Positions 19,106-30,788 of a DNA stretch of 64,000 nucleotides are shown one piece after another. Below the pieces are notes generated by a model. That model searched no databases, was not told the DNA's origin, and saw only the letters and a list, made by a program, of their open reading frames with translations. The stretch is from Asticcacaulis aquaticus. GTDB taxonomy: Bacteria > Pseudomonadota > Alphaproteobacteria > Caulobacterales > Caulobacteraceae. The first letter of the stretch is position 1. Every line of letters begins with the position of its first letter. Location of the stretch: NCBI RefSeq assembly GCF_028550415.1, contig NZ_JAQQKX010000004.1, forward strand, positions 186,001-250,000, given 5' to 3'. A program made the position numbers and the translations under genes.

Positions 19106-19990
19106 TTAAGACGCCATCAGGCGACGGCACAGGGCGTCGAGCTGCTCCAGATTGGCGTAGGCGATCTTCATCTCGCCCTTCCCGCCCTTGTCATCGAGCT
19201 TGACCGTCAGGCCGAGGATTTCCTCCAGATCCTGCGCCAACGACAGCACGTCGGCGTCGGGTTGCGCTTTCGGTCGCGCCGACTTGGTCTCAAGCCCCGC
19301 CGACGATTGCCGCGCCAAGGCCTCGGCCTGACGCACGGACAAACCCTGCGCGATGATCTTTTCGGCCAGTTCGGCGGCATTGTCGCACGTGGCGATGGCG
19401 CGGGCGTGACCGGCGCTCAGGCGACCGTGGATGACGTGATCCTGAATGGCTTCCGGCAGGGCCAGAAGGCGCATCATATTGGCGATGTGGCTGCGCGATT
19501 TCGACACGACCTGCGCCACCGCGTCCTGCGTGCGACCGAAGCGCTCCATCAGGGTCTTATAGGCGCGGGCCTCTTCGATCGGGTTGAGGTCTTCGCGCTG
19601 CACGTTTTCGATGATGCCGATTTCCAGCACTTCGAGATCGTCCAGCTCGCGCACCAGCACCGGCACGGTTTTCAGGCCCGCCTTCTGCGCCGCGCGCCAG
19701 CGGCGTTCGCCGGCGATGATCTGAAACTGACCGGCAGCATTAGGCGCCGGACGGACGAGGATCGGCGACAGGACGCCCTTCTCTTTCACCGAAGCGGCCA
19801 GATCGTCGATCTCGGCTTCGGAGAAAAAGCGGCGCGGCTGATCCGGATTACGGATCAGAAGCTCGATCGGCTTTTCCAGAGTCTGCACCGGCGCACCATC
19901 GGCGGCCACGGGCACCACCGGGACATTGCCCTGATTGTCACTGAGAAGCGCCGAAAGCCCCCGTCCGAGGCCGCGTTGTTTTTCTGACAT
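19106..19990 (-). CDS. parB: Chromosome-partitioning protein ParB
   Basis: A 294-residue ParB starting MSEKQRGLGRGLSALLSD, the conserved ParA-contacting N-terminus. The CTP-binding domain contains FQIIAGERRWRAAQKAG, followed by ENVQREDLNPIEEA and the helix-turn-helix around QDAVAQVVSKSRSHIANMMRLL, which reads parS. The C-terminal 40 residues dimerise. ParB loads at parS and spreads as a sliding clamp to build the centromere complex. Three perfect parS sites lie 1.6-5 kb away. The start at 19990 is used rather than an upstream Met at 20023 that falls in repeat DNA. Confidence 0.96.
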   Translation of the reverse strand: MSEKQRGLGRGLSALLSDNQGNVPVVPVAADGAPVQTLEKPIELLIRNPDQPRRFFSEAEIDDLAASVKEKGVLSPILVRPAPNAAGQFQIIAGERRWRAAQKAGLKTVPVLVRELDDLEVLEIGIIENVQREDLNPIEEARAYKTLMERFGRTQDAVAQVVSKSRSHIANMMRLLALPEAIQDHVIHGRLSAGHARAIATCDNAAELAEKIIAQGLSVRQAEALARQSSAGLETKSARPKAQPDADVLSLAQDLEEILGLTVKLDDKGGKGEMKIAYANLEQLDALCRRLMAS

Positions 19991-20007
19991 GGTTCGTTCC
20001 GTTTCCT

Positions 20008-20136
20008 TATACTCCCCCGCCACGCGGGGGAGGTGGCACGGCGCTTTGCGACGTGACGGTGGGGAGCTTTAACCAGACGCAAGGCCCCCCTCTCCCGCCT
20101 GACGGCGGTATCTCCCCCACGTGGTGGGGGAGTATT
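20008..20136. repeat. Family-1 repeat inserted between parA and parB
   Basis: TACTCCCCCGCCACGCGGGGGAGG in outline at the left and TCTCCCCCACGTGGTGGGGGAGTA at the right, the two ends inverted. Both ends are themselves hairpins (CTCCCCC/GGGGGAG). It separates parA from parB by 153 bp, although these genes are often nearly contiguous. Confidence 0.78.
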
Positions 20137-20143
20137 AATTATG

Positions 20144-20971
20144 TTAGGCCGCTTCCTGCGCACGGCGCTGCTTTTCGCGCTGCACGACTTCGCGGGCCAG
20201 TTTGAGATAGGCCTGTGAGCCCGAACATTTGAGATCGTAGATCAGCGCCGGTTTGCCGAACGACGGCGCTTCCGACACCCGCACATTGCGCGGGATGACC
20301 GTATCATAAACCTTGTCGCCGAAATGGCCGCGCACGTCCTTGGCCACATGCCCCGACAGGGCGTTGCGGCGGTCGTACATGGTCAGTACGATGCCCTGCA
20401 ATTCCAGGCGCTGATTGAGCGACCCGCGCACCAGATCGATGGTCCGCATCAGCTGGCTAAGGCCTTCAAGAGCGAAGAACTCGCACTGCAGCGGCACCAG
20501 AACGGCGTCGGACGCGCTCATGGCGTTGATGGTCAGCAGGTTCAGCGACGGCGGGCAATCGATCAGGACGTAGGTATAGCGCACCTCGCCCTCGTCCAGT
20601 TGCTGCTCCAGCGCGTCGCGCAGACGGTAAGACCGGCGCTCCGCCTGCCCCAGTTCGATCTCGACACCCGACAGATCGGGGTCGGATGGTATGATGTAGA
20701 GCCCCGGCACCGAGGTTTTCACCGCGCATTCGCCGATCGGCTGCTGATCGACGATGACGTCGTAGATGGTCGTGGTACGCGCGGCACGGGGCACGCCTAA
20801 ACCGGTCGAGGCATTGCCCTGCGGGTCCATATCGATCAGCAGAACCGTTTCGCCGACCGCGGCCAGCGCCGTACCGAGATTGATGGCGGTGGTCGTCTTA
20901 CCGACGCCGCCTTTCTGGTTCGAGACGGCCAGAACGCGAGGTGGGCGCTTCACAGCAGATTTATTTGGCAC
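20144..20971 (-). CDS. parA: Chromosome-partitioning ATPase ParA
   Basis: A 275-residue Walker-type ATPase. The deviant Walker A is KGGVGKTTT near residue 20, LLIDMDPQGNAS is the Walker A' segment, and YVLIDCPPSLNLLT is Walker B. ParA dimers coat the nucleoid and pull ParB-parS complexes to the opposite pole. The start overlaps the end of rsmG by 11 bp, so it belongs to the mnmG-rsmG-parA-parB run on the minus strand. Confidence 0.96.
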   Translation of the reverse strand: MPNKSAVKRPPRVLAVSNQKGGVGKTTTAINLGTALAAVGETVLLIDMDPQGNASTGLGVPRAARTTTIYDVIVDQQPIGECAVKTSVPGLYIIPSDPDLSGVEIELGQAERRSYRLRDALEQQLDEGEVRYTYVLIDCPPSLNLLTINAMSASDAVLVPLQCEFFALEGLSQLMRTIDLVRGSLNQRLELQGIVLTMYDRRNALSGHVAKDVRGHFGDKVYDTVIPRNVRVSEAPSFGKPALIYDLKCSGSQAYLKLAREVVQREKQRRAQEAA

Positions 20972-28430: not shown

Positions 28431-29456
28431 CTAACTACGAATGATTTCCAAGGCGCGTTCGACGTGCGCGATGGGCGTATCGGGGAAAATCCCGTGACCG
28501 AGATTGAAGATATACGGCCCCTGCCCCCAGGCGGATTTCAACGCCCGCACCATATCGTCGAGCGCTTGCCCACCCGAGCGCAGCACGACGGGATCGAGCG
28601 CCCCCTGAATGGGTTTCAGTTTCTGAATCTCTTGCCCCAGTTTTAGCGGCGTCGCGGTCCCCAGCGCCATGCCCTGAACCTCGACGGCCTGCACATAATC
28701 CAGACAGCGTGCCTCGGCCCCGCGCGGGAACCCGATGATCGGCAGGGTCACGCCCAATTCACGGACGCGCTTGATCAGGCGCTGATGCGGCCCGATGACC
28801 AGTTGATCGAACAGCGGATCTGGGAAGCCTTCGGCCCAGCTTTCGAAGATTTTAAGCACCTGCGCCCCGGCCTCGGCCTGCATTTTCAGATATTGCGCCG
28901 AGGCCTCGATGACCACGTCCATGACCCTGGCCACCAGATCGGGCTGCTCGTAGACAAAGGACCGGATCAGCGACCGGTCGTGCGCCTTACGTCCGTTGAG
29001 CATATAGGTCATCACGGTCCACGGCCCGCCGCAGAAGCCTAAGAGCGTCACCTCTTTGGGAAGTTCCGAACGCAAAATCTTCAGGGTCTCGCCGACATTG
29101 GCCAGATATTCCCCCGCCGAGCCCGCCAGATCGGCCATCCGCTCGATAGGCGGTAAGTCGCCTAAGACAGGCCCCTCACCCGCCTCGAAGCGTACGTCTT
29201 GGCCCAGTGCCATGGGAATGACCAATATATCGGAAAAGAGGATCGCGCCGTCCATACCGTAACGCCGAACCGGCTGCAGGGTCGCTTCGGCGGCTTTTTC
29301 GGGGTTCAGACAAAAGCTGAGGAAATCGGGCGTCGTGGCGCGAAGCTCACGATATTCCGGCAGGTGTCGACCGGCCTGACGCATAAACCAGACGGGAGGG
29401 ATGGTCTGCCTGTGTCCCTGAAGGACCGAGACTATGGATGGGGTAAAGGTGGTCAT
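28431..29456 (-). CDS. hemE: Uroporphyrinogen decarboxylase
   Basis: A 341-residue TIM-barrel enzyme with the signature PPVWFMRQAGRHLPEYRE near residue 20 and GFCGGPWTVMTYM. It converts uroporphyrinogen III to coproporphyrinogen III. Its position matters: in Caulobacter crescentus and Rickettsia the chromosome origin lies between hemE and the RP001-type gene, the arrangement seen here, and in C. crescentus hemE promoter activity is part of origin function. The degenerate CtrA box at 29508-29522 is about 50 bp upstream of its start. Confidence 0.96.
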   Translation of the reverse strand: MTTFTPSIVSVLQGHRQTIPPVWFMRQAGRHLPEYRELRATTPDFLSFCLNPEKAAEATLQPVRRYGMDGAILFSDILVIPMALGQDVRFEAGEGPVLGDLPPIERMADLAGSAGEYLANVGETLKILRSELPKEVTLLGFCGGPWTVMTYMLNGRKAHDRSLIRSFVYEQPDLVARVMDVVIEASAQYLKMQAEAGAQVLKIFESWAEGFPDPLFDQLVIGPHQRLIKRVRELGVTLPIIGFPRGAEARCLDYVQAVEVQGMALGTATPLKLGQEIQKLKPIQGALDPVVLRSGGQALDDMVRALKSAWGQGPYIFNLGHGIFPDTPIAHVERALEIIRS

Positions 29457-29507
29457 AGGTCAACCCATAGGCCGGGGGCGGGTTCCCCTCAATCCTAAAC
29501 TGTTCCT

Positions 29508-29741
29508 CTAAATAGATTTTAAGAAAGATAGAAGGGGTAGTAAGGGCCGGGAGACTGCGGAAAAACGTCGCAGGCCGAGGTCGTGAGGGCGTTTATCACG
29601 GCTTTTTCACAAGACGTCGTTAACGAATAATTAATCATTCACACCCTGTGAAAAACCGGGATAGTTAACCAAATCTTAGGAATGATTAAAACTTTCTTAA
29701 TTGAAACGGACTCCGGTCATACACGGTTAATTTTTCATTAA
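29508..29741. promoter_or_regulatory. Five CtrA-type binding boxes in the origin
   Basis: Perfect TTAA-N7-TTAA boxes lie at 29620-29634, 29686-29700 and 29727-29741. Two boxes with one mismatch each are CTAA-N7-TTAA at 29508-29522 and TTAA-N7-TTAG at 29665-29679. The last three are 21 and 41 bp apart start to start, so CtrA could bind cooperatively. I saw no other perfect box in the intergenic DNA of the window. Confidence 0.88.
29603..29655. promoter_or_regulatory. Inverted pair of DnaA boxes in the origin
   Basis: TTTTTCACA at 29603-29611 (plus strand) and at 29647-29655 (minus strand, seen as TGTGAAAAA) both fit TTWTNCACA. They face each other across the CtrA box at 29620-29634. A third site, ATTTGCACA at 29743-29751, has one mismatch and abuts the last CtrA box. 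Confidence 0.7.
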
Positions 29742-29930
29742 GATTTGCACACAAATCCGTCACAAAAGATTCACCCTGCCCGTGATTGGGGAAAAATAGC
29801 CGCGGAATCGCCCCGGTTTTCCGCTGTTTCCCCGGTGCCCGGCGTGGTATGGCCTTTATGGGAAACTTATCCGGAAAAGCGATGGGATCATCCCCCGTTT
29901 TTCCCCAGAAAGCGTACACAGATAAATTTC

Positions 29931-30788
29931 ATGACGACATCAGCGGCAAAGATCGGCATCCACTTCCACGTCCATCTGGTCTCGGATTCGACCGGCGAAA
30001 CCCTTAACGCCCTGGCCAAGGCCGCCGCCGCCCGCTTCGAAGGCATCTACCCCATCGAACATATCTATGTGCTGATCCGTTCGGAAAAGCAGATGGAGCG
30101 CGCCCTGCATGAAATCGAAGCCTATCCCGGTATCGTCCTGCACACCCTGGTCGATGCCGACCTGCGCCTGACGCTGGAAACCTTCTGCCGCGAGCGCGAT
30201 ATCCCCACTATCGGCGTGCTCGATTCCGTCGTCGTCGCCTATTCGCGCTATCTCGGCGCCGCCGAATTCTCCAAGCGCACCGGTGCCCAGCACAATCTCG
30301 ACAACGAATATTTCGAACGCATCGAAGCCCTTAACTACGCCATCGCCCACGACGACGGCGCCTATGCCGACCGCCTGCGTCAGGCCGAAATCATCCTCAT
30401 CGGCGTGTCGCGCACCTCGAAAACCCCGACCTGCATCTATCTGGCCCACCGCGGTTACAAGGCCGCCAATATTCCGCTGGTCCCCGGTCGCGAATTGCCG
30501 CCGGAACTCGACGACCTTCAGGAACCCCTGATCGTCGGCCTCCTCGCTTCGCCCGACCGCCTGGTTCAGATCCGCAAGGCGCGCATCATGAGCATCGCCG
30601 CCGATGACCGCCCGACCAGCTATACCGACACCGAGGCCGTGCGCGAAGAAATCATCGCCGCCCGCCGCCTCTTCGAGCGCAAGGGCTGGCCGGTGATCGA
30701 CGTCACCCGGCGTAGCGTCGAGGAAACCTCGGCAGCCATCATCAGTTTGCTGAATGAAAAGCGGACGGGAAGACTGGGTGGGATTTAA
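29931..30788 (+). CDS. Pyruvate, phosphate dikinase / PEP synthase regulatory protein (RP001-type, DUF299)
   Basis: A 285-residue bifunctional kinase/phosphorylase. FHVHLVSDSTGETLNALAKAA is the conserved N-terminus and GVSRTSKTPTCIYLAHRGYKAANIPLVP holds the P-loop-like GVSRTSKT near residue 155. The family phosphorylates and dephosphorylates the PEP-forming dikinase to switch carbon flow between pyruvate and PEP. The frame runs back to 29745, but that part lies in the origin and has no family similarity. No clear ribosome-binding site precedes the ATG. It is the origin-flanking partner of hemE. Confidence 0.93.
   Translation: MTTSAAKIGIHFHVHLVSDSTGETLNALAKAAAARFEGIYPIEHIYVLIRSEKQMERALHEIEAYPGIVLHTLVDADLRLTLETFCRERDIPTIGVLDSVVVAYSRYLGAAEFSKRTGAQHNLDNEYFERIEALNYAIAHDDGAYADRLRQAEIILIGVSRTSKTPTCIYLAHRGYKAANIPLVPGRELPPELDDLQEPLIVGLLASPDRLVQIRKARIMSIAADDRPTSYTDTEAVREEIIAARRLFERKGWPVIDVTRRSVEETSAAIISLLNEKRTGRLGGI

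Follow-up and report, generated by a model that had tools for sequence, protein, structure and literature searches.

Two questions are raised by the 474-bp gap that separates hemE (start at 29456, minus strand) from a gene of the PPSR family (start at 29931, plus strand) in Asticcacaulis: is it the origin of chromosome replication, and is it held shut by CtrA in the way described for Cori, the origin of Caulobacter crescentus? Control of replication by CtrA has been worked out mainly in C. crescentus, and the genus-wide footprint assembled here widens that view. The gap was studied within a stretch of 64,000 nucleotides (the window), which covers positions 186001–250000 of contig C4 in a genome of 4.0 Mb in 38 contigs. 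Almost certainly, this is where replication of the Asticcacaulis chromosome starts. It is most likely a Cori-type, CtrA-blocked origin whose switch is placed elsewhere than in Caulobacter, and the view of it as a known kind of locus with a genus-specific layout is well supported. The whole proposal, in which positions 29457–29930 form the main-chromosome origin where DnaA would load and phosphorylated CtrA would block it, is in our judgement highly probable.

The flanking pair named in the original prediction, hemE and the dikinase regulator, is borne out by family matches to TIGR01464 and NF003742 (Table 1), and its adjacency across the gap is kept in all 25 Asticcacaulis genomes compared, with whole-gap lengths from 453 to 604 bp. 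Among named relatives, the PPSR protein comes closest to that of Asticcacaulis sp. YBE204 (96% identity); all 15 named matches at ≥77% identity belong to Asticcacaulis, and the remaining seven stand at ≤54%. The gene order is parB, parA, rsmG, mnmG, mnmE, rho, hemJ, hemH, hemE, the 474-bp gap, ppsR, maf, aroE, coaE, dnaQ and secB, where parA, hemJ, maf and aroE are named though their best family models score below the cut-offs. Bounded by hemE and COG1806 (PPSR), the gap has the flanks of a hemE/COG1806 origin, and the orthologous gap of C. crescentus is a proven origin (excerpt of PMC1914354). In the order as a whole 114 distinct genome loci were examined, drawn from 77 of 390 genomes of the family and 37 of 47 genomes of other families, and 111 of them show the adjacency. 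In L054, L151 and L173 hemE was not found in the stretch, leaving 111 gaps for the counts given below. Loci from genomes already counted (L165–L167, L071) were left out, and a join of L074 and L055 gave no gene and was dropped; the count of modules and boxes also excludes L046–L050, which belong to other orders and keep hemE-gap-PPSR but have no exact box, and L051–L052 (no hemE within the locus). L173 (G184, genus g7) has what looks by eye like a hemH ORF beside PPSR instead of hemE, and two exact CtrA boxes still lie 315 and 343 bp before PPSR. In L054 (G206, genus g13) hemE was not found in the stretch, the 700 bp before PPSR contain no exact CtrA box, and a long ORF that looks by eye like DNA polymerase I lies there, so its origin locus may be rearranged.

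Evidence apart from the boxes also bears on the assignment. The only three perfect parS sites of the genome (GTTTCACGTGAAAC) sit 4.5–7.9 kb from the gap, and a three-parS cluster near the gap was found in all six other Asticcacaulis searched. GcrA is encoded in the genome, as are CtrA and DnaA. GC skew was computed on the window's own 280-kb contig and on sampled stretches of two relatives (G038 and G033). For the single-contig relative G038, the 20 sampled stretches run through seven negative ones, the last of which holds the gap, to ten positive ones rightward and then three negative ones, so that the skew turns from negative to positive only at the gap stretch; over 208 contiguous kb its cumulative minimum falls at 1,044,019, about 0.16 kb from the gap at ~1,044,175–1,044,709. 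The skew of G033 is similar at coarse scale (20 stretches). A skew minimum elsewhere, named beforehand as an outcome against the prediction, was not seen in the relative. On contig C4 the skew is −0.022 left of the gap and +0.012 right of it, but the cumulative minimum lies 20 kb rightward at C4:235,496, and no switch of sign is seen between the 20 kb on either side of the gap (−0.004 left, −0.019 right). This minimum weakly disagrees with the gap as the origin position and could reflect local gene-strand effects. Taken together, synteny, parS, the skew of the single-contig relative and the conserved sites back the prediction of a chromosome origin.

The displaced minimum of C4 can also be read as a sign that the true origin lies elsewhere nearby and that the main role of the boxes is to regulate hemE and the PPSR gene, which are transcribed divergently, the more so as CtrA is also a transcription factor and has two exact boxes just upstream of its own gene. 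We consider this unlikely: the boxes keep a near-fixed spacing and sit in the middle of the gap beside DnaA-type sites, the skew minimum of the single-contig relative is at the gap, the window has a parS cluster nearby, and the orthologous gap of C. crescentus has been proven to be an origin. The boxes upstream of ctrA (207 and 393 bp from it; G000:C5:88943-89143, L129) are of a kind fitting CtrA autoregulation, and two exact boxes also lie 3′ of dnaA, a minus-strand gene (G000:C4:78705, 79945), ~135 kb from the origin.

For a CtrA-blocked origin, the boxes themselves are the central evidence. Five had been claimed, and all are present, three of them exact matches to TTAA-N7-TTAA (29620, 29686, 29727) and two with one mismatch (29508, 29665). 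The three exact boxes are all that the window holds, against a mean of 0.08 expected, and none of 100 dinucleotide shuffles reached this number; likewise, none of 5,000 shuffles of the gap, and none of 5,000 of its AT-rich core (GC 0.36), gave three exact boxes. By itself the box is not enriched genome-wide, with 39 exact matches vs 43 for the reversed control AATT-N7-AATT; it is the cluster that is. Exact, non-overlapping boxes whose starts are 15–42 bp apart occur just once in the 4.0 Mb, as 29686 and 29727, and not at all for the control, and the 111 origin gaps of the order hold 152 exact boxes vs 5 for the reversed control.

Conservation was read from a footprint of 25 Asticcacaulis gaps, one per genome, with bit scores taken from the 21 gaps left after removal of rows at least 95% alike over the core. 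Boxes 29686 and 29727 show stronger conservation in their half-sites than in the N7 spacer (1.81 vs 1.12 bits and 2.00 vs 0.71 bits, respectively), which is the pattern expected of a protein site. Box 29665, where half-site and spacer are equally conserved (1.61 and 1.62 bits), sits inside a strongly conserved element, GGATAATTAACCAAAT. The order is reversed in 29620, whose half-sites score below the spacer (0.51 vs 0.87 bits), and five further genomes (L016, L017, L019, L024, L025) have an exact box ~7 bp rightward. The box at 29508 is probably no CtrA site. With 29508 found in its own genome only and 29620 turning over, the credible CtrA sites would be three conserved ones plus one variable, i.e., three or four, not five; the claim that their number equals that of C. 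crescentus is not supported, and the shared count of five is a coincidence. As to CtrA boxes, then, the gap contains what a Cori-type origin calls for, namely three exact boxes and one conserved degenerate one. Four boxes (29620 to 29741) are packed within 122 bp, and this spacing, rightly predicted to be unlike that of C. crescentus, is seen genus-wide: 29665 and 29686 lie 21 bp apart in 25/25 genomes and 29686 and 29727 lie 41 or 42 bp apart in 25/25.

Table 1. Features of the origin region and related genes (window positions unless a contig is given; conservation counts refer to Asticcacaulis genomes)
Feature	Position	Strand	Observation
Origin region, Cori-type (most likely), between hemE and PPSR gene	29457..29930	.	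Synteny, parS, conservation, skew of relative
hemE, uroporphyrinogen decarboxylase, origin flank	28431..29456	-	TIGR01464 343.4 bits, cut-off 302.95
PPSR-family gene (COG1806/RP001 type; pyruvate,phosphate dikinase/PEP synthase regulator)	29931..30788	+	NF003742 321.3 bits, cut-off 225
ParB-family partition protein	19106..20023	-	TIGR00180 207 bits, cut-off 58
ParA-family ATPase	20144..20971	-	Position adjoining parB; best NCBIfam matches below cut-offs
parS, 1 of 3 in genome	21572..21585	.	Perfect match
parS, 2 of 3 in genome	23596..23609	.	Perfect match
parS, 3 of 3 in genome	24944..24957	.	Perfect match
One-mismatch CtrA-like box, AT-rich stretch (70% AT)	29508..29522	.	Box (<=1 mismatch) in 1/25, the window's own genome
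DnaA-box-like TTTTTCACA	29603..29611	+	Identical in 18/25; CACA kept in 25/25 rows
Exact CtrA box between two TTTTTCACA	29620..29634	.	Exact in place 10/25, <=1 mismatch 14/25; turns over in genus
Inverted DnaA-box-like TTTTTCACA	29647..29655	-	TGTG core in 24/25 rows, full TGTGAAAAA in 2/25
Highly conserved element GGATARTTAACCAAAT..TTAG enclosing degenerate CtrA box 29665-29679	29659..29680	.	<=1 mismatch 23/25, exact 0/25
CtrA box	29686..29700	.	Exact 16/25, <=1 mismatch 24/25; aligns with box at gap position 259 of G271
CtrA box, core of CtrA/DnaA module	29727..29741	.	Exact 25/25, invariant in genus
CACA of putative DnaA-like site, 6 nt past box 29727	29748..29751	+	Four invariant columns, 25/25
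Putative weak DnaA site, W-box TCCCCA type	29787..29792	-	Sequence match to W-box (excerpt of PMC4285127)
Putative weak DnaA site, W-box TCCCCA type	29902..29907	+	TCC.C invariant in 25 rows
CtrA	C5:89336-90007		407.7 bits, cut-off 350
DnaA	C4:80039-81427		

The two inverted DnaA-like boxes of the original prediction were recovered as TTTTTCACA at 29603 (+) and 29647 (−), the first at 62 or 63 bp from box 29665. In C. crescentus the weak DnaA W-box has the sequence TCCCCA (excerpt of PMC4285127), and this element of a Cori-type origin was found at 29787 (−) and 29902 (+). The C. crescentus G-box, TGATCCACA, was not found in the gap at up to one mismatch; exact G-boxes are present in 0/25 Asticcacaulis, 7/12 g13 and 0/74 other gaps. 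C. crescentus is reported to have an IHF site overlapping a CtrA site (excerpt of PMC4285127). The IHF consensus WATCARNNNNTTR, which may not fit the site reported for C. crescentus itself, was not found in the gap at up to one mismatch. The three GANTC sites that had been pointed out are present at 29709, 29768 and 29805, but they are not conserved in the genus, with orthologous GANTC in only 1, 8 and 7 of the 25 Asticcacaulis; conservation aside, three in 474 bp vs 129 in 64 kb is a weak excess. In the window GANTC is strongly under-represented (129 vs 340 expected from shuffles), and such scarcity is expected where CcrM methylates. As for an origin RNA, CcnA is a non-coding RNA at the C. 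crescentus origin with homologs reported in Caulobacterales (excerpt of PMC8959179). A CcnA-like RNA is unsupported here, though the test is a weak one: the fold predicted jointly for 25 right-arm segments in alignment has no pairs, and Rfam gave no match in the window at gathering scores.

The spacings of 21 and 41/42 bp suggest that the boxes may lie on one face of the helix and be bound cooperatively. For boxes with at most one mismatch, the distance met most often in the 111 origins is 21 bp, which occurs in 7 of 28 genera vs 0.8 expected from uniform distances; these genera are not independent (g24 and g27 share a family, and so do g34 and g37), and the 21-bp rule was sought after 21 and 42 had been seen. 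A genome-wide search of 322 genomes for exact box pairs gave 44 matches in 41 genomes, the control matching in 4 genomes. Sixteen of the 44 are the Asticcacaulis origin, and of the other 28, 15 are at 28–30 bp and three at 21 bp (G026, G217, G274). A general 21-bp phasing rule is not claimed, as exact pairs genome-wide show no preference for 21, and for this reason the spacing idea is kept as a hypothesis. In four g20 genomes (G288, G289, G318, G348) an exact pair recurs at a distance of 29 bp, its spacer nearly identical among them (e.g., G288:C71:69253-69296); it is probably one orthologous promoter.

Could the locus simply reproduce C. crescentus Cori, with all five of its CtrA sites? Comparison was made with genera g13, g5 and g20, which we infer to be Caulobacter, Brevundimonas and Phenylobacterium, and with genome G271, likewise assigned to the C. 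crescentus type. The gap of G271 carries boxes at 68 (one mismatch), 89, 211, 259 and 469 and the G-box at 488. The alignment with other Caulobacterales origins that had been called for places 29686 opposite box 259 of G271, in one multiple alignment of diverged gaps; we take box 259 to be box ‘d’ of C. crescentus. The layout of G271 matches the five CtrA sites and G-box reviewed for C. crescentus Cori (excerpts of PMC4468827 and PMC4285127). The shared flanks, the aligned box and the TCCCCA W-boxes would all suit a straight copy, but the alignments contradict it, since 29508 is unconserved, 29620 turns over, the G-box is missing from all 25 Asticcacaulis and so is the PPSR-end pair (box 469 and the G-box in G271). 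Five CtrA sites spread across the gap, with the PPSR-end one by a G-box, are thus not what is found here, and a straight copy is very unlikely. Least credible of all is that an AT-rich melting region gave rise to the cluster incidentally, with no binding of CtrA, as the AT-rich core and the poorly conserved half-sites of 29620 might suggest; against this speak the shuffles of core and gap, the half-site conservation at 29686 and 29727 and the near-absence of the reversed control from the origin gaps.

A CtrA-blocked origin of this layout might work as follows. The TTTTTCACA/CCTGTG sites, the CACA beside 29727 and the weak TCCCCA boxes on the PPSR side would serve for the assembly of DnaA, which would probably melt one of the AT-rich stretches, and forks would leave both ways. 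Phosphorylated CtrA would occupy 29665, 29686 and 29727, as well as 29620 in the present species, all of which adjoin DnaA sites or fall between them, and by analogy with Cori would keep DnaA off in the non-replicating, swarmer-type cell. Removal of CtrA would permit DnaA loading and the start of replication, and parS, following within 8 kb, would be segregated. CtrA binding, competition with DnaA and cell-cycle timing are all presumed here from the example of C. crescentus. In that species, laboratory cultures in which all five CtrA sites had been weakened showed only a mild disturbance of the cycle (excerpt of PMC4468827), so that the strength of any CtrA block is uncertain. The suggestion of a different cell-cycle lock is right as far as the layout goes, but the logic, a CtrA box beside a DnaA-type site, would be the same.

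The module was traced across genera as a loose pattern, with a left half TTAA, TTTA or CTAA, 4–11 nt, and then CACA or CCCA. It lies at least 170 bp from PPSR in 25/25 g1 (Asticcacaulis), 9/18 g5, 2/2 g2, 1/11 g20 and 1/1 g9, and at most 135 bp from PPSR in 12/12 g13, 2/2 g4, 1/1 g19, 1/1 g9 and 1/8 of family f3; the single g9 genome carries it at both places, and it was found at neither in g12 and g15 (one each) or in families f2 (9), f4 (10) and f5 (10). These counts indicate that the gene order is old and that CtrA boxes come and go, in line with the reviewed view that the use of CtrA at the origins of marine Caulobacter probably arose independently (excerpt of PMC4468827). A midpoint-rooted tree of partial PPSR and HemE (66 gaps), in which several nodes are weakly supported, fits, without proving it, a move in which the mid place is older and the end place was gained once or twice. 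It is possible, if rather doubtful, that the CtrA/DnaA switch is a movable module with two places in the orthologous gap, in the middle, as in Asticcacaulis and some g5 and g2, or by PPSR, as in g13, g4, g9 and g19, and that Asticcacaulis has fixed the mid place together with a rigid array, with spacings of 21 bp (~2 helical turns) and 41/42 bp (~4 turns), occupied as one cooperative unit. If so, the replication block may engage and release differently from that of Caulobacter.

Fixed in Asticcacaulis are the box beside a DnaA-type site and the spacing inside the array, while between genera the choice, place and number of boxes, the identity of the G-box and GANTC all move; the two places of the switch amount to a natural experiment on the position vs the mere presence of a CtrA/DnaA pair. 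Among the literature matches listed for Asticcacaulis, CtrA and oriC or replication origin, no paper describes the Asticcacaulis origin, although an earlier description is possible. The key comparative paper on such origins is reportedly that of Shaheen et al. 2009.

The predicted origins of Rickettsia, Wolbachia, Ehrlichia and Anaplasma, compared here by description, are likewise flanked by hemE and contain CtrA and DnaA boxes, and differ in having from 0 to 7 boxes and, in several, rearranged flanks (excerpt of PMC1914354); in Rickettsia, COG1806 is also a flank. The presumed Brevundimonas (g5) and Phenylobacterium (g20) have a mid-origin CtrA box with CACA or CCCA in 9/18 and 1/11 gaps, respectively, but fewer exact boxes (18 in 18 gaps and 12 in 11 gaps), and in many of their gaps no module can be recognised. 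With C. crescentus Cori the likeness extends to the flanking genes, the gap length (474 bp vs 518 bp in G271), the CtrA boxes, the pairing of a box with CACA, the TCCCCA W-boxes and parS within 8 kb. Unlike Cori, the Asticcacaulis origin keeps no CtrA box in the hemE-side AT stretch, shows no match to the IHF consensus at up to one mismatch, has TTTTTCACA where Cori has its G-box TGATCCACA, and packs its boxes into 122 bp rather than ~400 bp; its box/DnaA pair stands in the middle of the origin, whereas that of C. crescentus Cori stands at the PPSR end.
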